From Clostridia bacterium (GTDB lineage: Bacteria; Bacillota; Clostridia; UMGS1810): a DNA stretch of 64,000 bases. The notes beneath the pieces were generated by a model. It worked only from the letters and a program-made list of their open reading frames with translations. It made no database searches and had not been told where the DNA came from. Location of the stretch: positions 1 to 64,000 of the forward strand of contig JAFQBA010000094.1 of assembly GCA_017416845.1 (NCBI GenBank), read 5' to 3'. The position numbers and the translations under genes are program-made. This document shows, one piece after another, positions 8,602 through 60,512 of this stretch (positions are counted from its first letter, which is position 1; every line of letters starts with the position of its first letter).

Positions 8602-8644
8602 AACAGTACCGTAAGTTTTATAAACAATGAAAGGGGAAACGACA

Positions 8645-11434: not shown

Positions 11435-11452
11435 TATAAGGAGAGATGTATA

Positions 11453-12523: not shown

Positions 12524-12541
12524 CTACAAACGGTGATTAAT

Positions 12542-23501: not shown

Positions 23502-25145
23502 TTAAAAACCTCTCTTTTTGTCCCAAGGTTTTTCAAACTGATATACACCGTCAAAAGAAAGTTCACCAAAAAGTGCCTTCACAAATGCTATCTGTGATTC
23601 TTTTCGGTTGCTGAGGGCATGAACAAAAGTGTCCATACCGATAAAATAATCGTAATATACATATGGTGAACCCATTGACACTCCGACTGATTTTGATTTT
23701 CCCGAGGTAAATGCATAAAATAATGCTTTGCATTCGTCACAGAAAAGCCCGGAACCGCCCATGGGAGAGTGGGGGACTACATATGATGCATAAATAATCA
23801 CATCATTTTCTTCGCTGATTTCATGCATCTGCTCGTAAGACTCAATACGCCTTTGGAGTCTGACATTTATGCCTCTTTGTTCAAATTCCTCTTTCATTGC
23901 TTCAAGGTCGACGTGAAAGCTTTCCGAATGGGAAAACGCAAGAATAGCCACGTTTTTAACTTTGTTTTTATCAAGGGGAAGCTGATTGTTTTTGTCACAT
24001 TGCAAAATGATTGAATGCTCGCTTGCCGATGTGTTAAATATGGCAATTTTATTTTTTAATTCATCACTCATTTCAACTTCACAAACATCATCAAAAAGAC
24101 CAATTTTTCTCTTTACATTCAAAATACGCTCGCAGGCATCATCAATTCTTGCCTCTGATATTCTTCCGTCCTTAACCGCTTTTTCAATTATGTCAACATA
24201 ATCAAGTCGGCTCACTCCGAGAAGAACATCATTTCCTGCATTGAGAAGGGCTACATACAAATCTTCGGCTTTTGGATAAATTGCCTTGAGTGCTCCCATT
24301 TCAATTCCGTCGGTCACAACAACACCGTCAAATCCCATTTCCTCTTTCAAAAGACCGGTTATTATTTTATGTGAAAGAGTTGTGGGGATATAATCTCCGT
24401 TAATCTCAGTGTCATCAACTGCAGGGAAACTCTGATGCCCTGTCATTACGGAATATACACCTGAGTCAATCATATCCTGAAAGACCTTGCCTTGTCCTTC
24501 TTTCCATTCTTTGAGACTAAGATTGTTACAAGTATTCACAAAATGGGAATCTCTGTATTCTTCTTTATCCATACCCGGGAAATGCTTTGCTGTCATGGCA
24601 ACATTATTCTCCTGACACCCATTTACAATACACTTTGAAAGTGCCGAAAGAGTATCACGGTCAGATGAAACCTGCCTGTGTATGCAAACACCGTTAAATC
24701 TTGAAGGAATATCCACATTCAATGCCCAAACCCAGTTTGCACCAAGAGCACGTGCACAAAGAGCCTGATATTTTCCGTAATCTTCTGCTACTTTCTTGCT
24801 GTTTGAAGCACCGACAACCGGCGGATTAACGAGGTCAGCCATATCTGTTGCATAAGCGGAATTCGGAGGATCAAGTGCGATAAATGGCGGCACATTCATA
24901 CATTTTGCAACACGCTTAGTCCAGTTGCGATAGAATGCAGAATCTTCATATTTATCTCCGGTGACATTTTCAAGATTTGCCATTTGCATTGCAACATTGC
25001 ACACATGCCACACGCCAACCGGATTGTGTTGAAGATATTCGTCCATTTTATTGTTAAATTCCATATTGATTAAAGTTGATGACTGCACAACGGCTGTCTG
25101 ACCAATCTTTTCTCTCAATGTTAAATCTGATAATGATATATTCAC
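23502..25145 (-). CDS. GH3 beta-N-acetylhexosaminidase (NagZ-type)
   Basis: About 547 aa, no signal peptide, so cytoplasmic. The signature of GH3 hexosaminidases is present: AKHFPGMDKEEYRDSH, where the Asp-Ser-His supplies the acid/base, and the nucleophile Asp in VVTDGIEMGAL. It would remove terminal GlcNAc from oligosaccharides. The second half (about 370-547) is a smaller alpha/beta domain. Start: the ATG at 25169 lies upstream of the SD AAAGGAG, while a GTG at 25145 sits 8 nt after it, so GTG is preferred. Downstream nagA follows with a 1-bp gap, supporting coupled GlcNAc release and deacetylation (a GlcNAc kinase would be needed). Confidence 0.88.
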   Translation of the reverse strand: MNISLSDLTLREKIGQTAVVQSSTLINMEFNNKMDEYLQHNPVGVWHVCNVAMQMANLENVTGDKYEDSAFYRNWTKRVAKCMNVPPFIALDPPNSAYATDMADLVNPPVVGASNSKKVAEDYGKYQALCARALGANWVWALNVDIPSRFNGVCIHRQVSSDRDTLSALSKCIVNGCQENNVAMTAKHFPGMDKEEYRDSHFVNTCNNLSLKEWKEGQGKVFQDMIDSGVYSVMTGHQSFPAVDDTEINGDYIPTTLSHKIITGLLKEEMGFDGVVVTDGIEMGALKAIYPKAEDLYVALLNAGNDVLLGVSRLDYVDIIEKAVKDGRISEARIDDACERILNVKRKIGLFDDVCEVEMSDELKNKIAIFNTSASEHSIILQCDKNNQLPLDKNKVKNVAILAFSHSESFHVDLEAMKEEFEQRGINVRLQRRIESYEQMHEISEENDVIIYASYVVPHSPMGGSGLFCDECKALFYAFTSGKSKSVGVSMGSPYVYYDYFIGMDTFVHALSNRKESQIAFVKALFGELSFDGVYQFEKPWDKKRGF

Positions 25146-25172
25146 TGAAAACTTCTCCTTTATGTGCATTTA

Positions 25173-27746
25173 TCACTTAACTACAAACATTGACATTGGG
25201 TCATAGTAGCGCATTTCATATATGATTTCAGAAGCATCTTCACCTGCCACCTCATATGCCATTATATCTCTATAGTTTAATGTCTCTACTTTGCCAAGTT
25301 TTTTGTTATATTTGAAAATCATATACAAATCTGTTCTTACAGGTTTTGCATCTTTTGAAGATACAGTTGCAAGGTCTGTATTTTTCGGGAAAACATCTGA
25401 AACCACACCCCAGTTTTTGTAAACCTTACAAAAACGTACATCACAAATAGAACCGTCCGAACCAAATGTGTAAGTTCCGTTTGCGAGTGTTTCCGATTCG
25501 TTTTCCCATATAACTTCAACAGCATTTACTGTTTTTGTTTCGCCGCTGTAATCAACACGGATTATATCACCGCTCTCTATTCCGAGATTGGTAAAATAAT
25601 TATCGTTTTTACCATACACCGTTGTTCCCGAAACGCTTCTGCTGTTATAAATGGTAACGGCTTCAACATACTCATCACGCCACACACATTTTTTGACTTC
25701 GCCAACCATTGCAATTCGTGTATCACCGCCGACTGTGTTTCCGGCTCCTGTTTCCGCTTCGTATTCAACAGTTATATATCGTGCAACTTTTGAATTCGGA
25801 TCTATGCTGTAGCCGGTTATTGTGCAATTTTGGAATGAACTTCCGCTCACAACGGAATTAAGGCTTGTGACAGAATACAGGTCTTCTTCATCGTGCAATT
25901 CTCCGTTTGCACTCTGAATTGGATACTTAAACATGAGTGTCTGACCGGGTTCAACAAAAATATTTGGTCCGAAATATTTTGAATAACGTTTATATGTTCC
26001 TGTGTATGCATTTGATTTTTCGGTTTTCCCCACAAGATAGAGTTTTGATTCTGAATCCAAATCCATAATTTCATCGCTCGAATATTCTATGGATATAATT
26101 TTATCGTTTTCATCAAGCTTATAGAGAATCATGGTTTGTCTGAGCACATCGGAATTTGCAATTTTGGGAAGATTACTGATTATTTCATCATAGCTCTTGC
26201 ATCTTTTTCCGTTTATAACAGCATTTTCACGAACTTCATATGCAGAAAACATTTCGTTTGTGTCATAAATTCTGATGGCAAAACTTTCGGAAAGACCGCT
26301 GTTTTTGTGAGAATATTGCATCAATATACCACATAAATCACCGGATGAAATATCTTCTGTCAAATCAGCAACCTGACCATAAACGTTAATAACTGCATAA
26401 ACCGATTTCCCCGGCTCCACACCATTGGAAATAACAGATTTTCTTGATGAAGATAGTGTATATTTCTGAGTGTCAATCAAAAAGCTGTCTGAAGAAACTT
26501 CGGTAATTGTGCCGGTTACACTGTTGGTACAAAGCACAGCTTTCCAAAGAGTTCCGTCGGATTTTTCCCAAACAGAAAGGATATCTCCTGATGTGAGAGA
26601 TTCAAAATCTGCACCGGCACCGTCAATCGATTCCAATGATACATTATCGTCAATTATGTAGCTTAGCGCACCTTCGCAATATACTTTTTGAGTTTCTTTT
26701 TTGATTGATTCTATTTTAACATCGGTCACACTTTCAATTATAACCACATCTGCACCATCGGAATATATTCCGTTATCAATGAGAGTGAGAGTTCCGCACT
26801 CGGGCAAAAGTTTGTCTTCATCGTATACAACTTTTTCACCGTTACGGAATATCTGTGCATACACAGATATTCCTTTGGTTTTAAGTTTTCCGTCTTCATT
26901 GTAATAAGACACTTTATCATTCTGAATAGAAGCTCCGTTTTCAGAGGTGATTTCAATTACTTTTGAACGGCTGTCTTCAACGAGTGCAATAATCTCGTTG
27001 GAATTTTTATAATCACGGATGTATGCTGTTACATATTTTGCAAAGTAATCATCCGAATTGTAACGGCTATTTTTACATTTCATTCCTTCAAGTGTTAAAA
27101 ATCCTTCTCCATCTCCTTCATCAGAGCTAAGGGAGTAGCTTTCGGAGGAGGTTATCTGTCCGAAAACGGTTGTAATGTTGTATTTGCTTTCCAAAATGCT
27201 TTTTCCGCTGTCTTTAACATAAACAGAGTCTGTACTGATGTTAAGCTCGGCAGTATTTGCATTAAGGAAGTTAAAAAGAAGGATATATGCCATTTCATAG
27301 GTAACATACTCATCAAAAGATGCATTGATACCGTTGTCTATGTCAAGTCTCACCGCAGTATTGAGATATACTGACTTGTTGTATTCAACACCCGGCATAA
27401 ATCCGAGCAACTTAACCAGCATTGTTGCCGCATCACCGAGGGTTATGTTTTCATCGGGATGGAAATAGTAATTGGTTTCGGAATAGATTCCGGATGTTGC
27501 AAGTGTCGCCTTATCAACTCCATCATAATAGGAGTGATCAAGCATAAGATTTAGCCATGCATCACGTGTGATGGTCTGATCTTTCTTTGCACTTACATCT
27601 ACACATCCAATTCCCGAAAGCACTTGTGATGCTTCGTTAAAAAGAGCTTCATCGCACTTTGCTTCGGTGTTTGCCGACACCGACAAAACCGAAATTGCCG
27701 AAATTACAATTACAGATATTAAGATTAAAGATATAATTTTTCTCAT
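25173..27746 (-). CDS. Secreted SLH-like domain protein, beta-rich, paralogue B
   Basis: An 857-aa secreted protein: signal peptide (to about 26), divergent SLH-like region (about 28-175), then short beta-domains. It is a close paralogue of the 60513-63035 protein: shared core blocks DNGIYSDGADVVII, SGDILSVW, SVTGTIT and SGDIIRVDY, and a common end (FKYNKKLG then DIMAYEVAGED). No catalytic motifs recognised. Its SD (AGGAGG) overlaps the stop codon of the giant lyase upstream, so the two are translationally coupled. Role unknown; a wall-anchored partner of the lyase is the working inference. Confidence 0.78.
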   Translation of the reverse strand: MRKIISLILISVIVISAISVLSVSANTEAKCDEALFNEASQVLSGIGCVDVSAKKDQTITRDAWLNLMLDHSYYDGVDKATLATSGIYSETNYYFHPDENITLGDAATMLVKLLGFMPGVEYNKSVYLNTAVRLDIDNGINASFDEYVTYEMAYILLFNFLNANTAELNISTDSVYVKDSGKSILESKYNITTVFGQITSSESYSLSSDEGDGEGFLTLEGMKCKNSRYNSDDYFAKYVTAYIRDYKNSNEIIALVEDSRSKVIEITSENGASIQNDKVSYYNEDGKLKTKGISVYAQIFRNGEKVVYDEDKLLPECGTLTLIDNGIYSDGADVVIIESVTDVKIESIKKETQKVYCEGALSYIIDDNVSLESIDGAGADFESLTSGDILSVWEKSDGTLWKAVLCTNSVTGTITEVSSDSFLIDTQKYTLSSSRKSVISNGVEPGKSVYAVINVYGQVADLTEDISSGDLCGILMQYSHKNSGLSESFAIRIYDTNEMFSAYEVRENAVINGKRCKSYDEIISNLPKIANSDVLRQTMILYKLDENDKIISIEYSSDEIMDLDSESKLYLVGKTEKSNAYTGTYKRYSKYFGPNIFVEPGQTLMFKYPIQSANGELHDEEDLYSVTSLNSVVSGSSFQNCTITGYSIDPNSKVARYITVEYEAETGAGNTVGGDTRIAMVGEVKKCVWRDEYVEAVTIYNSRSVSGTTVYGKNDNYFTNLGIESGDIIRVDYSGETKTVNAVEVIWENESETLANGTYTFGSDGSICDVRFCKVYKNWGVVSDVFPKNTDLATVSSKDAKPVRTDLYMIFKYNKKLGKVETLNYRDIMAYEVAGEDASEIIYEMRYYDPMSMFVVK

Positions 27747-27757
27747 GTAATTTCCTC

Positions 27758-30700
27758 CTACTGTGCATACACAGTCATTTCAGTCACGCTGTTCCAGTGA
27801 TTCTGACTGTTTTGCTGTCCAACATATCTTACATACCTTGCACTTACATTATTAAGCTCGAAATACTCAAAATCACTATCTTTACCCGACGATTCTCCAA
27901 GCTCAATCTGCTTTGTCCATTTTTTGCCGTCAACAGATGTTTCGATTTCGAAGTATGTTTTTCTCGATGAACCGCTGTAGAATGCAATTCCGAGAGCTTT
28001 GATTTTTTGTTCCGAACCAAGATCAAGATCAAGTGTCACGTCACCGTTTTCACCGCTTGCAGACCATCTTGTTGAAAGCGAGCCGTCTATTGCATTTTCG
28101 GGCACGTTACCGTCATTGTCGGAAGCTTTAATCTTGCTTACGGTGAGCTTTGTAAGCTTGGAAATATCAATTGCTTTTTTCTCTGCTCTCACTCCAACGG
28201 TATAGTAATTTAAGTTTCCTTCACCGTCTGACACTTCAATGTCAATGTTTCCGGGAAGCTCATCGGGATATATTACTTCAGCGTATATGCTGTCAGTCTT
28301 ATCAACGGTGATTTCGGGCATTTTACCGTCTGCACCCACTTCAAATTCATAGAAGAAATTCTTGGAATTAAAGTTAGTAATTTTTGTACCGTTAATATAA
28401 ATTCTGTCAAGCTCGGGGATAGGTCTTGACTGTTCAGTTGCGGTCCAGTTTTCAAGATCAATCCACTCTGAAATTTCATTGGGCATCTGACGGTCACATA
28501 CAAAGGGTGTGATTTCTACCATGAGTTTAAGTTCTGTTACATCACTTGCCTTTATTGCAAGCTTTTGATATTCTCTGTGTATCTTCTGTCCGTCAGCTTT
28601 CGGAGATGTGGGAAGTGATTCCGCTTTCATTTTATAAAGTTCATAAGGTACATTTGCATATACTTTTACGGCAACTTTTTTATCACCGACAGAAAGAATT
28701 GCTGTATCATTGCTGACAATTTCAATATCTGCAGGGGTATTGAAAGACCAGAAGATTTCAGATGGCTTTTTCATAACGGCTTCGTCCTGAACAACAATTG
28801 CTGTTCTGTTGTTGTGAAGTTTAAGACCTCTCTGATATTTTTCAACCTGTTTGTGATATACAGGTTGGAGATCCGCAATTGCATATGCACATCCGTCCGA
28901 AGATTCCTGCTTTGTGATGGTGGCTGCTGTTGTAACATCCTGACCAACATCGAGACCGGGGTTAATTACAAGACAGTTTCCGCCCTCGGTTCTTCTTTCA
29001 TAATAAGTCCATCTCTGACCATTTTGTCCGTTATCCCAATATCCGGGAAGATTATAGTCGCCTGCACCCAGTGCTGTTATAAATCTTTCGCCATAAACAT
29101 CGAGGCAGAAAAGACCCGAAACCGGATCGGAGTGACCTGTTGCTGTTCCTTTGCCGGCATAAAGTCCGGTAAATATGTTGGTTTTGTCGTCGCCGTGATT
29201 TCTGAATACTGCAGTTGACTGAGCAGGCACAGAAAGAAGTCTGTCGAGAGGAATGGAAAGATTGGGCGTAATGTTATTGTGTTCGCCCTTATCATATGCC
29301 AAAAGGGCATCTATGGCACTTCCTGCATCAAGCTCTATGATTCGTTTCATCATGGATGTATTTCTTGCATATTTTGCAAGGAAATAGAGACTGTCGGTGT
29401 CGTATGAGGATTTTGCAGCTCCTGCATCACCAAATGTCATGGGTCCATACATATACAGACCGAACCAAGCAGTATTTTTAAATCCGGGACTCTTATCATA
29501 ACCATACATTGTTCCGAGAGCTGTTTGCAGTGAATTCATTGCAACCGAGGCTCTTCCGGTACAATAGTGATAATAGGTGGCAGGTTCTTCAAAACCTCCG
29601 TCTTTAACAAGCTCCCAATAGGGTTCTATGTTATAGAGTGCATTTGAAATGATAAATGCCGAGTAATCGGGGTCAGTTTTTGCAAGTGCAAGTGCGGCAA
29701 CAATAAGATTTGAATTGTTGTATACCGTATGGTTAAATGACCCCCTTGAAATTACTATGTTCATGTTTGCATGAGCCGCACGAAGAGAAGCCAATGCATC
29801 GGGATTTTTGTAATATTCATAGGCGATAGACAAACAGTTTTCTTTGATGTTTTTCTCTGCCCATTGCCTTTGCTCGGCACTGAGATGGTCATAGAGCCAG
29901 TCATAACAAAAAGCTATGGCTTCTGCTGTCATTGTGTTGTCAAGTTGTGCTCCTGAATTCCAGTTTTCAACGGTCCGGAGATTTTCAAATTCATCCATTG
30001 CTCTTTGGAGATATTTTTCATCGCCTTCAACATAATAGGTTGTCATAAGCACAAGAACGTTACATCTTATGCTGATACATCCCTGAGAAACTGCCTTGTT
30101 AAGCACAGTGGGATTGGTTGAAAGAAGTCTGTCGGCTTCTTTTTTTACCTGTGAATATTTTCGGGTGATATATTCATCATCGCCCGATACAACAGACTGT
30201 TTGATTTTTTTAAGTTTTTCGGCATCTGCAAACAAATAGGGATGGTTCTTTGAAGAAAGAACAGTTTCGATATCCGCTTTTATCTGAGCCTGGGTTGGGG
30301 TTGAGAATGAATAAACAGTATTGTTATCACTTGGGTCAGACGGTTCTTCTTTCCATATTGTGGATGCATAATTCTTTATGTGTTCGAGTGTTCTGTAGAT
30401 AATGCACGCTGTTTCTGCACGGGTTGCAGATTTTAACGGCAAGAACGTGCCATCGGGATTACCGCTTACAATACCGTGATGAGCAAGATATGCTACAGCA
30501 TCTTTTGCATAATCAGAGATGTTTGCGGAATCAGAAAAATTAACGGTTTCGGTTGCCTGAACCTGATAGCCCATTGCATCGAGAGCTCGAACTGTCATCA
30601 CACATATATCCTGTCTTGTTATGGGAGTGCCGCTTCCGAAATGAGTGTCTGAAATTCCCGAAACTATGTTTGCTTTAAGAGCGGATGACACGTAGTTATA

Positions 30701-33700
30701 ATACCATGAATCCTTTGGCACATCAGCAAATTTCACATCTTCCGATACACCTTTAAGTTCAGATGCTTCCATAATGAGTTTTACGAATTCTTCTCGCAAA
30801 ACATTGTCAGAAGGAGCATAAATGCGCTCTGAGCGTCCGTTGATGACACCCATACGATAAAGAAATTCTATTTCATCTTTTGCCCACAAAACAGAGTCAA
30901 GGTCTGTAAAATAGTTTTCTTCGGTTTTCAATACATTTTGATTATTTGTGTCAGATGTCATGTCTGACGGTATGGTGGTAACTCCAAATGCAACACCGTT
31001 GCCGTTACCGCCGCTGATTACGGTTCCGCCGCCAGCGCCACCTGACGGCTCATCTTTTGATTCAAGAGCTTTTTTGAATTGTTCCTGAAAATCATCGAGA
31101 CTGTCAAACTTTTTGCCCACAAGAGCGTTGTTAACCTTGGTTTTATTCTTTTTATATTTGGAAATATACGATGTAATTCCAAGGATTTCTGCATTTTCTT
31201 CATCGGTAAAAATTGCAGTAAGAGTTGACTGGTTTTTAGCATCGTCAATTGCTTTTAAAAGCGAATTAACTTTATTGAAATATGTGCATTTATCTGTCAA
31301 AAAGCTTTCAAAGTCGGCAATTGCTTTGTCGGAATATTCATCAGGGAAGTCATAATCCGAAACCGAAGCTGCCACATCATCTGATATTTGGGTTATATCA
31401 AAATCAATTTCGTCAAATTCAAATTTTTCTATTGTTTCACCAAGAACTTTTTTAATTCTTGTTTTGTCACCGGAGCTGATTTCCTCCCACAGATTTTTAT
31501 AATCAGAATAGGCTGTATAGTCAATGGGGTCAAGAGCAATTTTTGAGCCAAAGTGTACATCCGAATTTACATATGCAGTGTACTTTCCGGAATTATCGAA
31601 CATAACCGGGAAAGCAAAGTTACCTTCACTGTCAGAAACAACCTGATTGTAATGACAAATTTTATTGTTTTCGTCATATACGGTCAGAGATATATCAGTG
31701 TTTGGACTGTCAGAAAGATTTCCCTCAATTGTAATTTCACCGTAAAGCTTTCCTCTCATTGAGTCTGCTGATGCTTCATCACCGGATAAAACAACAGATT
31801 TTATAACCTTTTGATTGGATACATTGTCCCAAACAAAAGCTTTAACGTAACATTTTGAAACATCGGTTATGTTTTCGGGAACTGTAAGAGATGCTTCGAG
31901 AGTTTTTTCTTCATTTTCCGAAATAGATTCATCATCTCCTGCCACGGATGAATCGAGCATTTTTCCTTTGCCGTCATAAAGCACCGCAATTAGCGCAGGA
32001 CCAATCGAGGACACTTCGGTGTTATTGCTGATATCTACTGATGCAGTAATTATTGAACCTGAATCAATAGTTCCGGAAACAGTAACATCGGATATATCAA
32101 TTCTGCTTGCAGTTGAAAATCTGATTTTTTTATCTTTTACAACATTTTCTCCTGCAGTAATACCTGAAACAGTTAATTCATATGAAGTAAGTTCGTCCAG
32201 AGAATCCGGGAAACTTATTGTAACCGTATTTGTTGAATCATCATAGGTAATTTGAGAATCGTCTATTACAATCTCTTCATTTTTGTCAAGATTTTTAAGA
32301 ACAAAGTTTGAGCTGTCCGCTCCGTCAACAGAACCCGAAAATTCAATTACCACATCGGCATCAACAGAAAAACCTACTTCGTCATTTGCAGGAATTGTTG
32401 ATTTTACGCCCACATAGGAACTGTCGGTATATTCAATTGTAATTTTCGGACGGTTAGAGTTTGATGCGAAATCACTGTAGAGCTTTGTTGTGGAAGCTCC
32501 GGGTTTTAATGCAAAACGTATGTATGGATCGCTCTCGGAAAGGGTTTTCAACTTTTCGTTAACAAATGATGTGAGGTCAAAATCCACATACGTACCACTG
32601 TTAATGCCGACAAATCTTGAGAAAAGATGATCTCCGAGAGTCGGTGCAGTTGCATATGTTACGGTTTCGGGGTCAAAATCTTCGCTGACATCATAAAAAT
32701 ATACAGTAAAGTACTGATTTGCCGATTCAAACTTAATATCATAAGTTACACGACTTAAATTTTTGCCGATGTAATCGCTCATATCAAGTTCAACGTAATA
32801 TGGATAATAATTTCCTCCGGCATAAAAGTAAAACGGAGTGGTGGTCATACGAGTGTTATTTGGTGAAACCGGGTCAAGATGAGCAGATTGTATAATATCG
32901 GTTAACGTAACAGAAGAGTTAACCGGCATACATGAAAATGCAAAGCTCAAATCTAAGCCGAGACTATTACCATAGATATCGGAAACAAATTCTGAAATTA
33001 CAAGCTCGTAATCACAGTATGGCACTTTTTCTTTTGTTATTGTAAGCACATTTTCATTTATAACAAAATCTTCCTCGGTTAAATCAACCATTTCTCCGTC
33101 TTCAAACAGTGAAATTGTGTCAACCGATACAGTTGATGCATCGAGAATGTTGTTAAATTCAATTGCAACATCATCGGTAGAAAGCATTTCCTGTGCAGGC
33201 GAAGAAACCACCTCAAGAGGCTCAACCGGAGAGGTTGAAATTTCAAGAGTGGGTCGGATTTCTTCGTTTTCATTATCCTTTGATGCAATCATCATTGCAT
33301 AAGGTGAAGGATATGCAATAAAAGCAAAAGACATATCTGAATCTGATTTGAGATTGTATTTTTTCACAAGGTCTGTTAAATCAAATTCATAAAGCTTGAA
33401 ACCTGATGAAGAACCCACAAGATTGAAAGACGGCGAAACCAAATCAGGCTGTATTCTGCCTTCTATGTTTGTCCCTGTTACATCAATTGCAAGATCGCTG
33501 CCTTTTAAAGGAACAATCGGAGCTTCGACATTATATGTAAGCTTATCTTCAGACCAATTACTGTCGGTTTTAAAGAAATATAATTTCACACCGTTTTCAG
33601 GGTCTCTGCTGGAATGAGCATAGAGCTTAAGCTTTGCAGAGTCGATTTTTACATCGGTGTAATCTGACATATCAAATTTCATATAGGACATAGCCGAAGC

Positions 33701-33970
33701 ATATCTTGCAGTGTTTAGATCGCCGGCGGCAGATGCACCCATTGCACGAATGTGCTGATAGTCATTTGATGATGCTCCTTCCACTTGTACACCCTGAACC
33801 GAAACAACATATGCAGTTGCATCGCCTGTCCAGGTGTCATCAGTTGGGGTAAGCGCTATTATTTCATCGGAAGCATAGGCATTGTTTGTAAAAAATGCAC
33901 CGGGCACACATGGCAATGCAATGAGTGCGCAAAGCACCAATGAAATGATTTTCAAAAATGTTTTTTTCAT
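27758..33970 (-). CDS. Giant secreted heparinase II/III-like lyase with DNRLRE, SLH and F5/8C domains
   Basis: A 2070-aa surface protein. Order: signal peptide (to about 33), DNRLRE-type carbohydrate-binding domains (about 36-255 and 355-520), Big-like folds, a beta-sandwich with KAFVW (about 620-730), a transthyretin-like fold (about 735-815), a helical module ending ALVGKKFDSLDDF (about 820-1000), a Gly-rich linker, three SLH repeats (about 1020-1205), the lyase module (about 1240-1830) and an F5/8C domain (about 1925-2070). Candidate catalytic residues: His1414 (SFNHTVYNN), Tyr1466/1467 and His1613 (GHSDPVSG). SLH repeats would fix it to the cell wall. It is followed at once by SLH protein B and preceded by the GH2 gene. 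Confidence 0.85.
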   Translation of the reverse strand: MKKTFLKIISLVLCALIALPCVPGAFFTNNAYASDEIIALTPTDDTWTGDATAYVVSVQGVQVEGASSNDYQHIRAMGASAAGDLNTARYASAMSYMKFDMSDYTDVKIDSAKLKLYAHSSRDPENGVKLYFFKTDSNWSEDKLTYNVEAPIVPLKGSDLAIDVTGTNIEGRIQPDLVSPSFNLVGSSSGFKLYEFDLTDLVKKYNLKSDSDMSFAFIAYPSPYAMMIASKDNENEEIRPTLEISTSPVEPLEVVSSPAQEMLSTDDVAIEFNNILDASTVSVDTISLFEDGEMVDLTEEDFVINENVLTITKEKVPYCDYELVISEFVSDIYGNSLGLDLSFAFSCMPVNSSVTLTDIIQSAHLDPVSPNNTRMTTTPFYFYAGGNYYPYYVELDMSDYIGKNLSRVTYDIKFESANQYFTVYFYDVSEDFDPETVTYATAPTLGDHLFSRFVGINSGTYVDFDLTSFVNEKLKTLSESDPYIRFALKPGASTTKLYSDFASNSNRPKITIEYTDSSYVGVKSTIPANDEVGFSVDADVVIEFSGSVDGADSSNFVLKNLDKNEEIVIDDSQITYDDSTNTVTISFPDSLDELTSYELTVSGITAGENVVKDKKIRFSTASRIDISDVTVSGTIDSGSIITASVDISNNTEVSSIGPALIAVLYDGKGKMLDSSVAGDDESISENEEKTLEASLTVPENITDVSKCYVKAFVWDNVSNQKVIKSVVLSGDEASADSMRGKLYGEITIEGNLSDSPNTDISLTVYDENNKICHYNQVVSDSEGNFAFPVMFDNSGKYTAYVNSDVHFGSKIALDPIDYTAYSDYKNLWEEISSGDKTRIKKVLGETIEKFEFDEIDFDITQISDDVAASVSDYDFPDEYSDKAIADFESFLTDKCTYFNKVNSLLKAIDDAKNQSTLTAIFTDEENAEILGITSYISKYKKNKTKVNNALVGKKFDSLDDFQEQFKKALESKDEPSGGAGGGTVISGGNGNGVAFGVTTIPSDMTSDTNNQNVLKTEENYFTDLDSVLWAKDEIEFLYRMGVINGRSERIYAPSDNVLREEFVKLIMEASELKGVSEDVKFADVPKDSWYYNYVSSALKANIVSGISDTHFGSGTPITRQDICVMTVRALDAMGYQVQATETVNFSDSANISDYAKDAVAYLAHHGIVSGNPDGTFLPLKSATRAETACIIYRTLEHIKNYASTIWKEEPSDPSDNNTVYSFSTPTQAQIKADIETVLSSKNHPYLFADAEKLKKIKQSVVSGDDEYITRKYSQVKKEADRLLSTNPTVLNKAVSQGCISIRCNVLVLMTTYYVEGDEKYLQRAMDEFENLRTVENWNSGAQLDNTMTAEAIAFCYDWLYDHLSAEQRQWAEKNIKENCLSIAYEYYKNPDALASLRAAHANMNIVISRGSFNHTVYNNSNLIVAALALAKTDPDYSAFIISNALYNIEPYWELVKDGGFEEPATYYHYCTGRASVAMNSLQTALGTMYGYDKSPGFKNTAWFGLYMYGPMTFGDAGAAKSSYDTDSLYFLAKYARNTSMMKRIIELDAGSAIDALLAYDKGEHNNITPNLSIPLDRLLSVPAQSTAVFRNHGDDKTNIFTGLYAGKGTATGHSDPVSGLFCLDVYGERFITALGAGDYNLPGYWDNGQNGQRWTYYERRTEGGNCLVINPGLDVGQDVTTAATITKQESSDGCAYAIADLQPVYHKQVEKYQRGLKLHNNRTAIVVQDEAVMKKPSEIFWSFNTPADIEIVSNDTAILSVGDKKVAVKVYANVPYELYKMKAESLPTSPKADGQKIHREYQKLAIKASDVTELKLMVEITPFVCDRQMPNEISEWIDLENWTATEQSRPIPELDRIYINGTKITNFNSKNFFYEFEVGADGKMPEITVDKTDSIYAEVIYPDELPGNIDIEVSDGEGNLNYYTVGVRAEKKAIDISKLTKLTVSKIKASDNDGNVPENAIDGSLSTRWSASGENGDVTLDLDLGSEQKIKALGIAFYSGSSRKTYFEIETSVDGKKWTKQIELGESSGKDSDFEYFELNNVSARYVRYVGQQNSQNHWNSVTEMTVYAQ

Positions 33971-34026: not shown

Positions 34027-35763
34027 TTAGCGTTGTTTATCGAGACTATACGCTTCCTTAAGTGCATAAAACGGAAGTTTAGTTTCCCTTTCATATGTAA
34101 GCATTCCTTTGAGGTTAAATCCGTTCCATCTGCCGTTCATAGGCTTTGAGGGGTCGTTATAATCGGTGAAAGCAAAAACATAGTATCCCGATACGGATTC
34201 GTGCTCTCTTCCTGCTTCAATATAGTTCTTTACAATTTCTGCGTGGAAGTTTTCGCTCCACAAATGGCACTTGTCCGAAATATATCCGGGTTCTGAGTCT
34301 GCACCAAATTCTGTGAGAAGCAAAACAGCATCCTCGGAAACTTCTTTTTCAACTCGTTCGATTATTTCGTGAACTGCCGACACGTCAGCTTTTCGAACCT
34401 CATTGCCAATGTCGTCATCTGTTGTAAAATTGTTTATTACGCCGTACCATCCGCAATAGGAATTGATGCCCATTACATCAACAGTGTGAGCTATTTTACC
34501 AACCAAACCATAAAGGGAGGCATATCCTACAAGTCTTGTGTTATCGCTTTTGCGAACAACGTCCGAAATTTTTTCAAAAAACGGTACTGTTTCGGGGTGC
34601 ATTGTGTTACATTCATTCCCGATTCCGTAGATTACAACAGAAGCAAATCTGCGAGCACCAAAAATCATTTCTTCGGTCATTGAAACTGCAACATCAATAA
34701 ATTCTTTCCGGGCAAACACTGTGTTGGTTTGTTCAACATCGGGTTTTGAACAATATATGTTAGGTTCAATCCAAACTGTTAAACCCATCTCATCGCAAAG
34801 CTCATAAAAACTGTCGGGCATGGGATAATGCGTGCGGACTGAATTTACGTTGGCTTCTTTCATTTTTAAAAGGTCAAATCGAATTTCTTCTTTTGTTACC
34901 GCAAGACCTGATTTCGGAGTGTCGGTTAAATAACAAGCACCTTTGGCTTCAAAGGGTTTGCCGTTTAACATAAGCTTTCTGTTTTTGCGGGAAATATTTC
35001 TGAATCCCACATTATAGCTTGCGTACACATCATTTTTAACGAATATTTCAATAGGGTAGAGCTTGGGGTTTGCGGGACTCCATGGTGTAATATCCGAAAG
35101 TCTGAATTGACCGCTGAATACACCTGCTTCGGAACACATTTCAAACTCGGCTCCGTCAATTTTAATCGTCATTTTGGGTGCATTTCCTTTTGCACAGACA
35201 TTAAGGATTCCTTCGTTTGAAGCTATGTCAAAATCGGGAGTAAGCTCAATGTCATAGAGACTGTCTTTGTCGAAAACTTCAATATACACATCTCTGTGAA
35301 TGCCACCAAACACACCATATCCCCAGTCATTTGGCCATTTAACCTCCGTGGGTCTGTTGTCCACCTGAACAGCAATGTAGTTTTTACCTTGTTTCAAAAA
35401 TTTTGAGATATCAAAAGAAAATTCTGTGTAAGCAGATTCATGTACTCCTACAAGTTCACCGTTTACATAGACATCAGCTTTGTAGTTTACACCTTTGAAT
35501 ACCAAGTTTGCAAAAAAGTCTTTATCAAAGAAATCTACTTCAAACTCACGGTAAAACCAACATACCCCTTCGAACACACTGTATTTTTCACCGTATCTTT
35601 GCCAAACTCCGGGAACTTCAACATCTTCCCAGTGTTTTCGGCAAAGCTCATCACTGGCATATATGGGTATTCTTGCAAAGGATACATTGTGATTGTTTGT
35701 TGGTTTCTGGTCATAGGTTGGGGCAAATTTCCAAATCCCGTTTAAATTAATTGTATTTTTCAT
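34027..35763 (-). CDS. GH2 glycosidase, beta-glucuronidase-like
   Basis: A 578-aa cytoplasmic enzyme (no signal peptide) with the sugar-binding, Ig-like and TIM-barrel domains of GH2. The acid/base Glu384 lies in YGIGNEC and the nucleophile Glu485 in LLLTEFGADS. Near the C-terminus, N550-L-K552 in GFNLKGMLTYERETK matches the N-x-K motif that contacts the carboxylate in beta-glucuronidases, which favours glucuronides over galactosides. Length is close to bacterial beta-glucuronidases (about 600). SD AGGAG precedes the ATG at 35763; the giant lyase starts 56 bp downstream. Activity not proven. Confidence 0.82.
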   Translation of the reverse strand: MKNTINLNGIWKFAPTYDQKPTNNHNVSFARIPIYASDELCRKHWEDVEVPGVWQRYGEKYSVFEGVCWFYREFEVDFFDKDFFANLVFKGVNYKADVYVNGELVGVHESAYTEFSFDISKFLKQGKNYIAVQVDNRPTEVKWPNDWGYGVFGGIHRDVYIEVFDKDSLYDIELTPDFDIASNEGILNVCAKGNAPKMTIKIDGAEFEMCSEAGVFSGQFRLSDITPWSPANPKLYPIEIFVKNDVYASYNVGFRNISRKNRKLMLNGKPFEAKGACYLTDTPKSGLAVTKEEIRFDLLKMKEANVNSVRTHYPMPDSFYELCDEMGLTVWIEPNIYCSKPDVEQTNTVFARKEFIDVAVSMTEEMIFGARRFASVVIYGIGNECNTMHPETVPFFEKISDVVRKSDNTRLVGYASLYGLVGKIAHTVDVMGINSYCGWYGVINNFTTDDDIGNEVRKADVSAVHEIIERVEKEVSEDAVLLLTEFGADSEPGYISDKCHLWSENFHAEIVKNYIEAGREHESVSGYYVFAFTDYNDPSKPMNGRWNGFNLKGMLTYERETKLPFYALKEAYSLDKQR

Positions 35764-52273: not shown

Positions 52274-53113
52274 ATGCTTTGGGAAAATTTAAGAGAAGAA
52301 GAATTTAAAGACGCCATAAAAAAGTCAAACGGTGTTTGCATTTTGCCGATAGGCTGTCTTGAAAAACACGGTCAGCATATGCCTGTAGGAACCGATGCAA
52401 TTCAGGCTGCCGAGTTTGCACGCATAGCTGCAGACAAAGAATATGCCGTTGTTTTCCCTACAATGTATTTCGGCGAAAAAACAGGTGCCGGAGAATTTGC
52501 GGGAACAGTAATGTTTTCTGCAAAGCTTCGCTTTGACATCTTAACCGAAACCTGCAGAGAAATAGCAAGAAACGGATTCAAAAAAATTCTCATCTACAAC
52601 TGTCATGGCGGAAACCACAGTATGATTGGAGATTTTACACGTTCTGTGCTTTTTGAAAAGAATGATTATATGGTATTCAATTCAACGCTCTACACCGACT
52701 GTATTGCACAAATTCTTGAAATCGGTTATGATTTTCTCACCGATGAAGACACAAAAATCATGCAGGATTTTGTTGATCAGAAAATTCCTCACGGACATGC
52801 CTGCTTTGTTGAAACAGGATTTATATATTCTGTACGTCCCGAAACAATCCGTCTCGACAAGATGAATCAGGAGGACGGTCTTTCAAACGGACGTTTTGAC
52901 GATTTCGGAAAATACGGCATAGGAACTCCATTTGCATGGATGGCAAACTATCCAAACTCCTATTCGGGTGGCTATTTCCCCGGACTTAACGAAAGAATCG
53001 CAAAAGCTATTATGGAGTATCAGACAGATCTTTTGGCAGAACGCATTAAATTCCTTAAAACAGAAACAATCTCCGATGAATATCACAAGGAATGGCTTTC
53101 GAAACAAAAATAA
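52274..53113 (+). CDS. Creatininase-family metal-dependent amidohydrolase
   Basis: A 279-aa cytoplasmic protein of the creatininase family. Metal-site motifs are intact: LPIGCLEKHGQHMPVGTD (Glu-His and Asp) and YNCHGGNHSM. The family includes creatininase and several amide or lactam hydrolases, so a role in opening a sugar-derived amide or in pterin/flavin side pathways is possible; nothing here points to creatine. Start at the ATG at 52274 after AAGGAG. The DNRLRE gene follows 28 bp later. Confidence 0.85.
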   Translation: MLWENLREEEFKDAIKKSNGVCILPIGCLEKHGQHMPVGTDAIQAAEFARIAADKEYAVVFPTMYFGEKTGAGEFAGTVMFSAKLRFDILTETCREIARNGFKKILIYNCHGGNHSMIGDFTRSVLFEKNDYMVFNSTLYTDCIAQILEIGYDFLTDEDTKIMQDFVDQKIPHGHACFVETGFIYSVRPETIRLDKMNQEDGLSNGRFDDFGKYGIGTPFAWMANYPNSYSGGYFPGLNERIAKAIMEYQTDLLAERIKFLKTETISDEYHKEWLSKQK

Positions 53114-53141
53114 AATTTTAAATATTGAAAGGATGATTTTA

Positions 53142-54875
53142 ATGAAAAAATTATTAGCAATTCTTCTTTGTTGCCTTATGGTAACAGGCATTGTTGCAGT
53201 ATCTCCAATGCAGAGTACAACTGCTTATGCAGAGGATGAAACAATTACTCTGGATTACAAAAACTTCACCACCTCAATGTACAACAGCTCCACCGGTGAA
53301 ATTGTTCGTGAAATGCGTTACAATTTTATGAGATGGCTTGGCGGACCGGCAAACAACGAGCTTGTGAATCATTGGTATATGTCTGTTGACATTTCAGCAC
53401 TTGCCGAAAAAAATATTTCAAAAGCTACTTTAAATATATTTTTCGGTGGTAGAGCGCTTGTAAATATCTATAAAGCTCCGGGAGATTTTGTTCCGGGTAC
53501 AACTCCTTATGAAGATCTTCCAAAGATTACAGAAGAAAATATGCCCGAGGAGCAGTTTGTTGCGTCATGTGATGCTGCAAATCAGAATAATTATGTTGAA
53601 TTTGATGTGACAGCCTATGCAAGAGAGCTTGTTAACTCAGGTAAAACAAAGATGAATCTTATGATGTATTCACGTTCATCTTCAACCTCTGGTGTATGTC
53701 CTGAATATGGTGATAGTTCGCACAGACCTTATATTACAGCTCTTTGCTCCGAGCCTGTTGCTCCCGAGATAATTGCCACATCTCCCGAAGCGGACGAGAC
53801 AAATGTTGATCCCGAATCAAACATAACCTTCACTCTTTCCGAAGCTCCCGTATCAGTTTCCAAAGATAATATTACTCTTATTAACTTTGAAAACGATGAG
53901 GAATATCAGCTTAAAGACTCTGAGGTAAGCTTTGATGCAGGAAATTGCATGATCACAGTAAACCCCGAAAAAATATTAAACGGCAGCAGCATTTATTATG
54001 TAAAGCTTTCAGGTCTCAAAAATTCCAAAGGCGAAGAATTCCCCGAAATATTTTTTAACTTCACCACTGCACCGAGCAAACCCGTAACAATAGATTACAC
54101 AAAAATACAAAGTGCTATGTATGACTATGTTGACGGAACCTTTGGTAAGGAATATGATAATTATAACCTTTTAAGATTCTACAAGGTTATTGACGGAAAA
54201 GTTGTTCTCCGAAACGACTATTATGTATCCATAGACATTTCGGAACTTGCAGGCAAAAAAATTGAGAATGCAACCTTCTCACTCTGGTGTAACGGAAGAG
54301 CTCTTATGACTTTCTACAAAGCAGACGCTAATTTTATCCCCGGTGAAACTCTCTATGAAGATATGCCGAAAATCACCGGCAATATGCCTGAAGAGTCACT
54401 TATCGGATTCTATGAACAGGCAAGCGGACGTGTATACGGCACAGTTGATATGACCTGGTATCTGAGAGAATGTCTTGCAAAAGGGAAAACCAAGCTCAAC
54501 TTTATGGTTCGTCAGGGCTCAACTTCAACCTTTGGTATTTCGGCTGAAAACGGCGATTCAGCCTATCGTCCGAGTTTAACAGTTACTTTTGATGATTCCT
54601 ATGATGAACCCGAAGCTCTTGAAATAGGTGATGTTAGCTTCGAAGATAATACTGCGAGCGTAACTATAATCAAAAACACTGTTGATGATATGGGCAAAGC
54701 AACTTTAATTGTCGCAGGTTATGCAGATGATGAAATGAAAGCTGTAAAATTTGTTGAAAAAGAGCTTCATTTTGGTGAAAACAGTTTCAATGTGACTTTG
54801 GATGAAACAAATGGTGCAACAAGCTTCAAAACATTCCTCTGGAATGGATTTGAGACAATGAAACCGTTAAAATAA
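53142..54875 (+). CDS. Secreted protein with two DNRLRE-type domains
   Basis: A 577-aa secreted protein. Signal peptide (to about 29), DNRLRE-type domain 1 (about 32-205), Big-like fold (about 205-310), DNRLRE-type domain 2 (about 310-480) and a C-terminal beta-sandwich ending FKTFLWNGFETMKPL. Domain 2 is nearly the same as the DNRLRE domain of the next gene at DNA level (54291-54376 with 55595-55680). No catalytic motifs. SD GAAAGGA before the ATG at 53142. Likely a glycan-binding partner of the giant lyase downstream. Confidence 0.8.
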   Translation: MKKLLAILLCCLMVTGIVAVSPMQSTTAYAEDETITLDYKNFTTSMYNSSTGEIVREMRYNFMRWLGGPANNELVNHWYMSVDISALAEKNISKATLNIFFGGRALVNIYKAPGDFVPGTTPYEDLPKITEENMPEEQFVASCDAANQNNYVEFDVTAYARELVNSGKTKMNLMMYSRSSSTSGVCPEYGDSSHRPYITALCSEPVAPEIIATSPEADETNVDPESNITFTLSEAPVSVSKDNITLINFENDEEYQLKDSEVSFDAGNCMITVNPEKILNGSSIYYVKLSGLKNSKGEEFPEIFFNFTTAPSKPVTIDYTKIQSAMYDYVDGTFGKEYDNYNLLRFYKVIDGKVVLRNDYYVSIDISELAGKKIENATFSLWCNGRALMTFYKADANFIPGETLYEDMPKITGNMPEESLIGFYEQASGRVYGTVDMTWYLRECLAKGKTKLNFMVRQGSTSTFGISAENGDSAYRPSLTVTFDDSYDEPEALEIGDVSFEDNTASVTIIKNTVDDMGKATLIVAGYADDEMKAVKFVEKELHFGENSFNVTLDETNGATSFKTFLWNGFETMKPLK

Positions 54876-57900: not shown

Positions 57901-60502
57901 CGCTACCATCTGGGAAAAGCCCCTTGAAGCTGTTAAAAAAATTGAAGCTCCAAGCGAAGAGCAAATACTTTCAGATATAAAATCAAAGTTTAACAAAAAA
58001 GAAGTTAATCATCCCTTTATTTTCGGGAATGACCAAAAAATCGAAGAAATAAAAACCAATCTTTCATCAGGCGATTCCTACACCAAGATTATGTACGGTC
58101 AGGTAAAGAAATATGCAGACAATTTCCTTAACGTACCTCCGGTTGTACACAACGGCAGTGTGACTCAGGTTTACAACTATGTTGACGACCGTATTATGAA
58201 TCTTATGATTGCCTATCATATTGAAGGCGACGAAAAATATTTAAACAGAGCCAAGGAAGAATTTGAAAACTTCAAAAAAATCACCCGTTGGGACGGCGGT
58301 GCTCAGCTTGAAAATTCTCAGACCGGCTATGCCTTAGCGGTATGCTATGACTGGCTCTACGACTATCTCACAGCCGAAGACAGAGCGTGGGCTGAGGAAA
58401 CAATCAAGGTAAAAATGCTTGAAATAGCATACAAATACTATCAAAATCCCGATTCATATAATGAGCTTCGCTCGCAGTATGCAAGTATGAATATTCAGTG
58501 CGGAAATTCAACCTACAATCACTCAACATACAATAATTCAAATTTGTTTGTTGCGGCTCTCGCTCTTGCCCCGATATATCCGGAATATTCGGCATATATA
58601 ATGGCAAATAATATGAAAAACGTTCAGCCATACATAGAACTCATCGGACCTGACGGCGGTTTTGATGAACCTGTCGGATATTATTCTTACAAGTCTCCAA
58701 AGATAATGCAAATGCTTCAGGCTTGCCAGAGTGTACTTGGAACGTCCTATGGCTACGACCGCTACGAAGGCTTCCGTTCAACCTCATACTATCCGCTCTT
58801 TATGTACGGCGCAGGTGCCTTTGCCTTTGGCGATTCAGGTCCCGGAATTGCAAGCTTTGATTCAAACTATATGTACTACACGGCAAAATACTCCAAGGAT
58901 TCCAAGCTTATGAGCCTTGTTGCCGAAAAGTTGTCGGAGGGTGACTGCGCAAAAGCACTGCTTTGCTATGAAAGCGGTGATATGAACAATGTGGACAAGG
59001 ACGCTTCGCTTCCTCTTGACAATGTAATTTATCCTTTAACCAAAGACCAGAACGTCATCTCAATGAGAAACAACTGGGACATTCAAAAGGGACTTTTCAC
59101 TGCAATGTATGCAGGCTGTGCAACTGCAAACGGTCACTCCGATGCTGTTTCGGGTGCATTTGGAATTGATGCCTTTGGTGAAATTTTTGTTACTGCTATA
59201 GGCAGAGGCGACTATGATTATCCCGGCTATTGGGATAATACCCAGAATGGCGGCAGATGGGACTGGTACGAAAAACGTCCCGAAGGGAGTAACTGTCTTG
59301 TTATCAATCCTTCCGAAAAGGTTGGTCAGGATGTTAGTGAAACAGCGGTTATTGATGTATATGAATCCGGTGAAGGTGCGGCATTTGGTGTTACTGACCT
59401 TTCGGGAGTTTACAAAGAATATGTAACCTCCTACAAACGAGGTCTCAAGCTTCACGATTCAAGAAGCAAAATTGTTGTTCAGGACGAAGCAACAATGAAA
59501 ACACCGTCAGAAATTTTCTGGTCCATCAACACTCCGGCTGACATTGAAATCATCGATGAAGATACCGTACTCCTTTCAATCGGTGCAAAAATGGTTGCAG
59601 TTAAATTCTATGCAAATGTTGATTTTGAGCTCTTTGAAATGGCGGCAGAAAAGCTTCCCACTTCACCCCAAAAAGCAGAGCAGCTCCGCTACAGAGATTA
59701 TCGCAAGATAGCTCTCAGGGCAAAAGATGTAACAGAGCTCAAACTTATGGTCGAATTTGTGCCTGTTGGTGCATATTCAGAGGCACTCCTCCCTATATCG
59801 GAATTTATTCCCATAGAAAACTGGAATGTTTCAGAACCAAAGAGAGAATTCCCGAAACTTAGTGCAATTACGGTTGACGGTGAAGCTATCGACGGTTTTG
59901 ACAAAGACATTCATTCATACCTTATTGAATTTGATACCTTGCCCGAAAAACTGCCTGAAATCAAAGCAACAGCTGAAAATGAAGCCGATGTAACCGTTAC
60001 ATATTCCGATGCTGAGAGAAAATCTGCCGAAATCAAGGTAGAAAAAGGTGATGAGGTTTCATGGTATGAAGTAATCTTCATCGAAGAAGAAAAGCCCTTT
60101 GATGTCAGCGGTATGAAAAAACTAAACATCACATCAGTCACTGCCACAACTCACGACGGAAATCTTCCTCAAAACACCATTGACGGAAATCTCAACACAC
60201 GCTGGTCGGCTGAGGGATTCGGACAGTATATTATCTTTGACCTCGGATCGGTAAAAGATATAAGTGCAATGGGAATTGCATATTATCAGGGCTCAAAGAG
60301 ATCGTCATATTATGACATCCTTGTGTCCGAAGATGGTGAAGAGTGGACAAAGCTTGTATCAGATGCTGAATCTTCAGGAAAGTCTGATGATCTCGAAAAC
60401 TTTGAGCTTGTTACAAAAGCGAGATATGTAAAATATTATGGCTACGGCAACTCCCAGGGTAAATGGAACAGCCTTTCGGAAGTAGCGATTTATTCAAAAT
60501 AA
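54992..60502 (+). CDS. Giant secreted heparinase II/III-like lyase with DNRLRE, SLH and F5/8C domains, copy 2
   Basis: A 1836-aa surface protein parallel to the one at 27758-33970. Signal peptide (to about 25), Big-like fold (about 30-130), DNRLRE-type domain (about 130-300), Big-like fold, transthyretin-like fold (about 420-510), helical module ending ALVGKSFDSKEDF (about 510-740), Gly-rich linker (about 741-750), three SLH repeats (about 790-965), lyase module (about 1005-1590) and F5/8C (about 1695-1836). Candidate catalytic residues: His1177 (STYNHSTYNN), Tyr1230/1231/1233 and His1382 (GHSDAVSG). SLH protein C follows at once (11 bp), then GH88, the natural next step for unsaturated products. 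Confidence 0.86.
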   Translation: MKKVLSLVLCILLILPVFPANISFAEDADAFEVTTTKDNIISYSKKLTVSFSNEIDSSTVSPETVKLYADGVETNLSPEDISVSANTVTINIQKYPYVKYKAEFLSEICDVNETKLGKDVLINFETNAPEKTGTIPYSSIKSAMYDFVDGSVTTEMDKYGMLRFYKVIDGKVVLRNHYYVSVDISSFAGKTVTDAKFNIHVNGRALMTFYKADANFIPGETAYEDMPKITDNMSEDDVICSYSQSSGNLNTLLDMTAYMNECLDDGKTHMNFMVDQGSTSTFGVAPEQGDSSYRPFMNISYAESEFPVVTSTTPAAWETSMPCEGEIMFSLSDCAIDVSSENIILLNNENNEQLILEEESVAYDSEKKTVTLSAFEPLSPQTVYTLEISGLKTDLGKSFADKKVKFKTGGTREELYYSKPSETSFVKVNIADDYSGAVVISGKFFALSDAPVSIDVVNAEGESIYFENVTCDEYGYFSFDVSSDYSGICKAYVSSEKNLGNNIETDEFEIYSVSEFMSVWENLGSGDKIKIADSIESAFSLFEIGNGKKTVFEKGDALVEVIADSGSFGEYNYENIIAMKDFVFENYIICGFASEVDEKLVREAIEEYASEMDFASLENFGKYKVMDDNSKEATAKIFSEAKSSDKDTKEKIRKLLGECITQKELLNVFEKIENASNHTEVSKIILDEYYANLLGLSDDNISDYKANKKNAGKALVGKSFDSKEDFKKAFNKAVEAENPRETGGGGGGGSSFGGSSVVIKVDSESKPQPEQNPVVTTGDNDEKVQPSSYSFTDIAHYPWAVYEIEFLARMNVINGVGEGIYAPSGNVTREQSAKLLVQAMEFETINHNPGFSDADPDAWYYPYISTASSRGIVKGKGDIFGIGENVTREDLCTMAARTLEAAGYKIDECHLSFTDSSEVSDYAKNAVAFLANAGIIKGMPDGSFMPKNNTTRAEAAVFIYRFCEYVKTYSATIWEKPLEAVKKIEAPSEEQILSDIKSKFNKKEVNHPFIFGNDQKIEEIKTNLSSGDSYTKIMYGQVKKYADNFLNVPPVVHNGSVTQVYNYVDDRIMNLMIAYHIEGDEKYLNRAKEEFENFKKITRWDGGAQLENSQTGYALAVCYDWLYDYLTAEDRAWAEETIKVKMLEIAYKYYQNPDSYNELRSQYASMNIQCGNSTYNHSTYNNSNLFVAALALAPIYPEYSAYIMANNMKNVQPYIELIGPDGGFDEPVGYYSYKSPKIMQMLQACQSVLGTSYGYDRYEGFRSTSYYPLFMYGAGAFAFGDSGPGIASFDSNYMYYTAKYSKDSKLMSLVAEKLSEGDCAKALLCYESGDMNNVDKDASLPLDNVIYPLTKDQNVISMRNNWDIQKGLFTAMYAGCATANGHSDAVSGAFGIDAFGEIFVTAIGRGDYDYPGYWDNTQNGGRWDWYEKRPEGSNCLVINPSEKVGQDVSETAVIDVYESGEGAAFGVTDLSGVYKEYVTSYKRGLKLHDSRSKIVVQDEATMKTPSEIFWSINTPADIEIIDEDTVLLSIGAKMVAVKFYANVDFELFEMAAEKLPTSPQKAEQLRYRDYRKIALRAKDVTELKLMVEFVPVGAYSEALLPISEFIPIENWNVSEPKREFPKLSAITVDGEAIDGFDKDIHSYLIEFDTLPEKLPEIKATAENEADVTVTYSDAERKSAEIKVEKGDEVSWYEVIFIEEEKPFDVSGMKKLNITSVTATTHDGNLPQNTIDGNLNTRWSAEGFGQYIIFDLGSVKDISAMGIAYYQGSKRSSYYDILVSEDGEEWTKLVSDAESSGKSDDLENFELVTKARYVKYYGYGNSQGKWNSLSEVAIYSK

Positions 60503-60512
60503 GGAGGATAAC

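Follow-up and report, generated by a model that had tools for sequence, protein, structure and literature searches.

A recurring two-gene unit of wall anchor and probable S-layer-protein paralogue in polysaccharide loci of a Clostridia bacterium

The stretch of DNA analysed here (the window) spans 64,000 nucleotides of contig JAFQBA010000094.1 from assembly GCA_017416845.1 of an uncultured gut Clostridia bacterium (Bacillota; Clostridia; UMGS1810). It contains two copies, on opposite strands, of a gene pair in which a giant protein with surface layer (S-layer) homology (SLH) domains and a fused polysaccharide lyase is followed by a second SLH-like protein, hereafter the partner (Table 1). An earlier note, made from the sequence alone, had described the first pair as a 2070-aa lyase and, after 11 nt, an SLH-like partner, and the open reading frames are exactly as claimed. 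It had also placed the Shine-Dalgarno sequence of the partner over the lyase stop codon, an overlap seen in both copies (AGGAGG, reading TAGGAGG..ATG in copy 1 and TAAGGAGG..ATG in copy 2). The second pair that it reported at 54992-63035 on the other strand is a diverged copy in which the order is kept and the gap is 10 nt. The two lyases share 41% identity across ~1400 aa and the two partners 33% across 849 aa, and the duplication is therefore old rather than a chance match.

Table 1. Features of the two gene pairs and of other genes in the window
Feature	Position	Strand	Remarks
Copy 1 anchor-lyase fusion, 2070 aa	27758..33970	-	Signal peptide, CBM96, Big_5, Ig-like and helical module, SLH trimer, PL35-like lyase, F5/8C
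Copy 1 partner, 857 aa	25173..27746	-	S-layer-protein paralogue by sequence: degenerate N-terminal SLH trimer and beta-rich body
Copy 2 anchor-lyase fusion, 1836 aa	54992..60502	+	
Copy 2 partner, 840 aa	60513..63035	+	
Shine-Dalgarno AGGAGG of copy 1 partner	27754..27759	-	Overlaps lyase stop codon
Shine-Dalgarno AAGGAGG of copy 2 partner	60501..60507	+	Overlaps lyase stop codon
Ig-like and helical module of copy 1 fusion	31061..31753	-	~Residues 740-970; common to short stand-alone anchors
SLH trimer of copy 1 fusion	30398..30910	-	Residues 1021-1191; every groove Gly and Arg kept; SLH fold match to Sap/SpaA
PL35-like (DUF4962/heparinase II-III type) lyase domain of copy 1 fusion	28631..30256	-	Residues 1239-1780; probable catalytic N1413, Y1466, H1613; roles from PMC12088678
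F5/8 type C (CBM32-like) domain of copy 1 fusion	27776..28132	-	Residues 1947-2065
Degenerate SLH trimer of copy 1 partner	27252..27653	-	~Residues 32-165; first helix and Gly29 of SLH2 deleted
GH3-type protein	23502..25169	-	3 nt past copy 1 partner, same strand
GH2-type protein	34027..35763	-	Directly upstream of copy 1 lyase
Secreted CBM96/Big_5 protein	52932..54875	+	Directly upstream of copy 2; true start probably internal to the open reading frame
GH88-like gene (unsaturated uronyl hydrolase type)	63122..64000	+	Directly after copy 2; 397 aa in full, extends beyond the window
Third partner-family member, 935 aa	8627..11434	+	No SLH anchor precedes it

The source genome (3.3 Mb, 142 contigs, 80% complete) was sampled in stretches, so that all counts for it are lower bounds. 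A profile of both window partners at first gave ~37 full-length relatives in this genome, and at least 46 were found once more regions had been read. We classed as anchor-type those proteins that end in an SLH trimer or in which the trimer is followed by a fused lyase. A partner gene directly follows on the same strand in 32 of the 44 anchor-type proteins, with gaps of -34 to +28 nt, and two further anchors sit one extra gene away from a partner. Proteins with N-terminal SLH domains are never directly followed by a partner in this genome. About 0.7 pairs would be expected by chance, assuming ~3000 genes; the pairing, with its fixed order and spacing, is thus real and far above chance. The constant upstream element is, however, the SLH anchor module and not the lyase, which is fused to the anchor in only three of the 32 pairs (both window copies and one on contig C142), and the partner family also has solo members. 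The pairing of lyase and partner as such, proposed in the earlier note, is therefore not supported. The partner as a lyase-specific subunit was rejected, most pairs being without a fused lyase.

Among 59 pairs from this and other genomes, the upstream protein stops 5-15 residues past the third SLH domain in 54. The other five are all of the window type and carry ~880 residues of lyase and CBM32-like domain beyond the trimer. As most anchors go no further than the trimer, the window 'lyase' is an anchor to which an enzyme, encoded elsewhere by its own gene, has been joined. Typically, the upstream protein is short (~550 aa) and looks simple, having Ig-like, helical and SLH parts. For this reason, it is very improbable that the partner serves as an export or folding helper for a giant upstream protein, a role with which the tight spacing, suggestive of translational coupling, would agree; the partner is larger than many of its upstream neighbours and is itself a surface protein of SLH layout with full-length S-layer-type homology.

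In Pfam, the copy 1 lyase matches three SLH domains (2.8e-31), CBM96, Big_5 and F5/8C; the weak matches to DUF4962 and Hepar_II_III (both ~5e-05) fall just short of the cut-offs. PL35 chains in the PDB are matched with E values of 1e-24 to 1e-30. The catalytic Tyr and His and the neutralising Asn of PL35, whose roles have been assigned (PMC12088678), map to Y1466, H1613 and N1413, and among 28 aligned lyase domains from the genome the Asn is present in 28, the Tyr in 28 and the His in 27. Given the match to PL35 structures and these conserved residues, the window lyase should be catalytically competent. Its neutraliser region reads FNH/YNH, as against Asn-Asn in PL35 glycosaminoglycan lyases, and the substrate may therefore differ from a glycosaminoglycan. 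The Asn-His arrangement looks nearer to that of alginate lyases than to that of glycosaminoglycan lyases, a resemblance to which we give little weight.

The partner alone has no significant Pfam match. The profile of its family hits SpaA, an S-layer protein, at the SLH trimer (4.6e-13), which bears out the 'SLH-like' label given to it earlier. An enzyme or a known binding module was rejected as its identity, since its body has no Pfam, NCBIfam or PDB sequence match. A structure search with the body returned OB-fold-like or other beta proteins at low TM-scores, a hint of small beta-barrels on which we do not rely. The conserved block DNGIYSDGADVVII, which had been taken to mark the partner, is present in the lyase-fused branch and limited to it; family-wide, the turn reads roughly LIDxx..YDxVxI.

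The partner profile aligns across positions 1-874 of 875 (E 2e-117) with L135, a solitary acidic SLH protein of 914 aa from the same genome. The codon adaptation index (CAI) of L135, 0.815, is the highest of 429 genes, with ribosomal reference proteins at 0.63-0.79, and in seven other genomes the effective number of codons of its relatives is 29-36, each value lying under those of all background genes compared from the same genome. With its codon bias, its position as a solitary gene and its SLH layout, L135 is probably the main S-layer protein. Given the full-length alignment and the S-layer-type profile of L135, the partner is, at the level of sequence, a paralogue of this probable main S-layer protein. 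The earlier note had counted a match to an S-layer protein against its proposal; the match found is full-length, and it is to a protein that is itself a probable S-layer protein. The conserved solo clade typified by L052:7346-9913, with a gene in nearly every sampled genome of the family, has intact SLH grooves and ordinary codon usage in the source genome, and was rejected as the main S-layer protein on its average CAI of 0.562 against the extreme value of L135.

In SpaA, the groove residues touch the wall polymer, with Gly29 and Arg43 binding the ligand and Gly29 being needed for anchoring (PMC6081394). The Gly29 and Arg43 of all three grooves are invariant in 22 of 22 anchors. Among partners, the SLH2 Gly29 is kept in 19 of 19 solo versus 27 of 50 paired members, the SLH2 Trp13 in 15 of 19 versus 3 of 50, and the SLH3 Arg43 in 15 of 19 versus 7 of 50. 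The window partners, which lack all three residues, are among the most decayed, and because of this loss of wall-binding residues we class them as S-layer-protein paralogues and not as S-layer proteins. The simplest reading of these patterns is that the anchor would hold the pair on the wall, the partner's own hold having become much weaker.

Divergence of the two genes is matched. Anchor and partner distances correlate at r = 0.79 across the 59 pairs (best of 2000 permutations, 0.21) and at r = 0.78 within the source genome (n = 31; best permuted, 0.18). On a tree of 78 partners, the paired state takes 6 changes, compared with 23 when labels are shuffled. Anchor and partner are also found naturally fused into single proteins, L082:4219-8535 (1438 aa) and L142:4597-8793 (1398 aa), which come from two different families. 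The fusions and the matched divergence agree with the 'two-part surface machine' suggested in the earlier note. Surface proteins are often grouped in operons, and the SLH1 Arg43 is kept in 48 of the 50 paired partners, so that some wall binding might remain; the two genes could then be merely co-expressed surface proteins of one operon that reach the wall independently and form no complex. We consider this improbable, given the fixed order and near-overlapping spacing at 32 loci, the matched divergence, the existence of natural fusions, and the decay of wall-binding residues in partners whose anchors are intact.

On balance, the pair is probably a wall anchor with a dedicated S-layer-type tile, together forming a polysaccharide-processing patch. 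Gene order, the homology of gene 2 to L135, joint divergence, the fusions and the catalytic residues of the lyase are read from the sequences, whereas contact, lattice and substrate are what we infer. The product of gene 1 would fix the unit to the wall by its Ig-like and helical module and its intact SLH trimer. The product of gene 2, derived from a duplicated coat protein with a decayed SLH trimer, would grip the wall poorly by itself, would be held there by the anchor and would form an S-layer-type tile around it. The enzyme would either be part of the anchor or come from a gene nearby, and each locus would thus make a coat patch that carries or admits its own enzyme.

Several points weigh against this proposal. 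It is the codon bias, the solitary gene and the SLH layout of L135 that point to its lattice role, and the physical contact of anchor with partner is a prediction. The residue counts for solo and paired partners come from related sequences and are not independent, and joint divergence is also expected if both genes merely duplicate together. The fused proteins retain the SLH-like part of the partner, which may still bind something. The CAI of the window partners is moderate (71st and 79th percentile), and they are therefore not bulk coat. Finally, the arrangement is not universal: in a complete genome of another family (G162), five full-length members were found, with about one beside an anchor.

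A lyase is fused to, or at most two genes from, 20 of the 32 pairs of the source genome (17 non-fused, 3 fused), and at least 40 PL35-like lyase genes, an unusually large set, were counted in the stretches read. The third lyase pair, on contig C142, has a separate 1015-aa lyase gene adjoining upstream. In the window, genes for GH2-, GH3- and GH88-type proteins adjoin the pairs (Table 1). GH88-type enzymes remove unsaturated uronic acids. The predicted action of the lyase is beta-elimination on a uronic-acid polysaccharide, after which the neighbouring GH88-, GH2- and GH3-type enzymes would complete the breakdown of its products.

The position of the pairs in polysaccharide operons with lyases and glycosidases also fits the main rival to a tile, namely that the partner is a glycan-capture protein, SusD-like or surface glycan-binding, whose beta-rich body would keep the polysaccharide in place for the lyase and whose S-layer ancestry is only history. 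The wide sequence diversity of the paralogues would suit many ligands, and two relatives (L141:3181-7086 and L143:3270-7037, each encoded immediately downstream of a protein with a C-terminal SLH trimer) have N-terminal CBM_4_9 domains fused to the partner. These modules are, however, add-ons, and their addition suggests that binding is not a property of the body itself; the body matches no carbohydrate-binding family, and the solitary relative L135, highly expressed by codon usage, is of coat type and not a specialised binder. We therefore regard glycan capture as rather unlikely, if less so than independent co-expression, and retain the anchor with its S-layer-type tile as the preferred explanation.

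Other members of these families occur in different arrangements. The third partner-family gene of the window belongs, with 11453-14782, to a second kind of operon, in which a divergent AraC-type gene lies upstream and the partner homologue is followed by genes for two further proteins, one LamG-like (356 aa) and one with a copper-amine-oxidase domain at its N-terminus. Sets resembling this operon (8627-14782) are present at L044, L047 and L049, and L043 has a related set. At 1358-4477, the window encodes a protein in which SLH domains at the N-terminus precede a PL35-like lyase and F5/8C, with no adjoining partner gene. The closest cassettes seen in the genome are those of L068 and L070 (contigs C121 and C39), which have 2067-aa anchors with partners, 65% and 58% identical.

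Across the class, the partner family was detected in 85 of the 291 genomes sampled and in 52 of 180 genera; these figures refer to presence of the family, the pair itself having been sampled. Pairing was found for 24 of 41 sampled partners and is present in other genera and several families. A scan of named genomes gave one locus with a lyase pair, in the goat caecum metagenome-assembled genome RGIG1828; it carries the third lyase pair, whose partner is almost the same as that on C142 of the source genome. There was no match in the viral contigs searched.

The S-layer proteins SpaA of P. alvei and Sap of B. anthracis have, like the partner, a signal peptide, an N-terminal SLH trimer and a large further body. 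The partner body has no sequence match to theirs, and, in contrast to SpaA and Sap, dozens of partner paralogues are tied to an anchor gene, the paired ones having decayed wall-binding grooves. The window lyase shares the Asn, Tyr and His residues of PL35 lyases (GAGase II, GAGase VII and PL35 chondroitinase) and probably has their domain layout, but has low identity to them and is fused to SLH, CBM96 and CBM32-like parts. To our knowledge, no dedicated partner gene encoding an S-layer paralogue has been described for SLH-anchored surface enzymes. Such enzymes of Clostridia and Paenibacillus (e.g. Cel5I, PMC4976890) have in common with the present system a catalytic protein held at the wall through SLH domains. 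The literature searched, which leaves most subscription journals outside, contains SLH enzymes and polysaccharide utilization loci and no pair of an anchor with an S-layer paralogue. As kinds of protein, PL35 lyases, S-layer proteins and SLH enzymes were known before; the repeated cassette of anchor and S-layer paralogue is apparently new.

Two further systems offer partial likenesses. The cell wall proteins of C. difficile are paralogues of SlpA that share the CWB2 anchor and vary in their other domains. They resemble the partners as a large S-layer paralogue family that diversifies the surface; in the partner system, no CWB2 match was found, the whole body is common to the family and a separate anchor is paired with it. 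In Bacteroidota, SusC/SusD is a two-gene surface unit that recurs many times per genome and marks polysaccharide loci. The anchor-partner unit differs in its Gram-positive SLH setting, in having no outer membrane transporter and in consisting of unrelated proteins, and the likeness is one of analogy only. Neither a TonB-dependent transporter or SusD match nor a cohesin or dockerin, as in cellulosomes, was present among the listed Pfam matches of anchors, partners and downstream proteins.

How S-layer-bearing Gram-positive gut bacteria organise large polysaccharides and reach them through the coat is poorly known. The recurrence of the two-gene unit at least 32 times in one genome suggests that a custom coat patch is built for each polysaccharide eaten. 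More tentatively, the coat might be a mosaic of substrate-specific ports, with each polysaccharide locus encoding its own S-layer tile and anchor; by analogy, and with the same reserve, such a mosaic could be the Gram-positive counterpart, in logic, of SusC/SusD, made from duplicated S-layer proteins. If the model of anchor and tile holds, S-layer proteins would be both armour and a gene pool that has yielded dedicated enzyme-bearing patches dozens of times, and the anchor-partner pair would be a simple genomic marker of polysaccharide loci in uncultured Clostridia that lack SusC/SusD markers.

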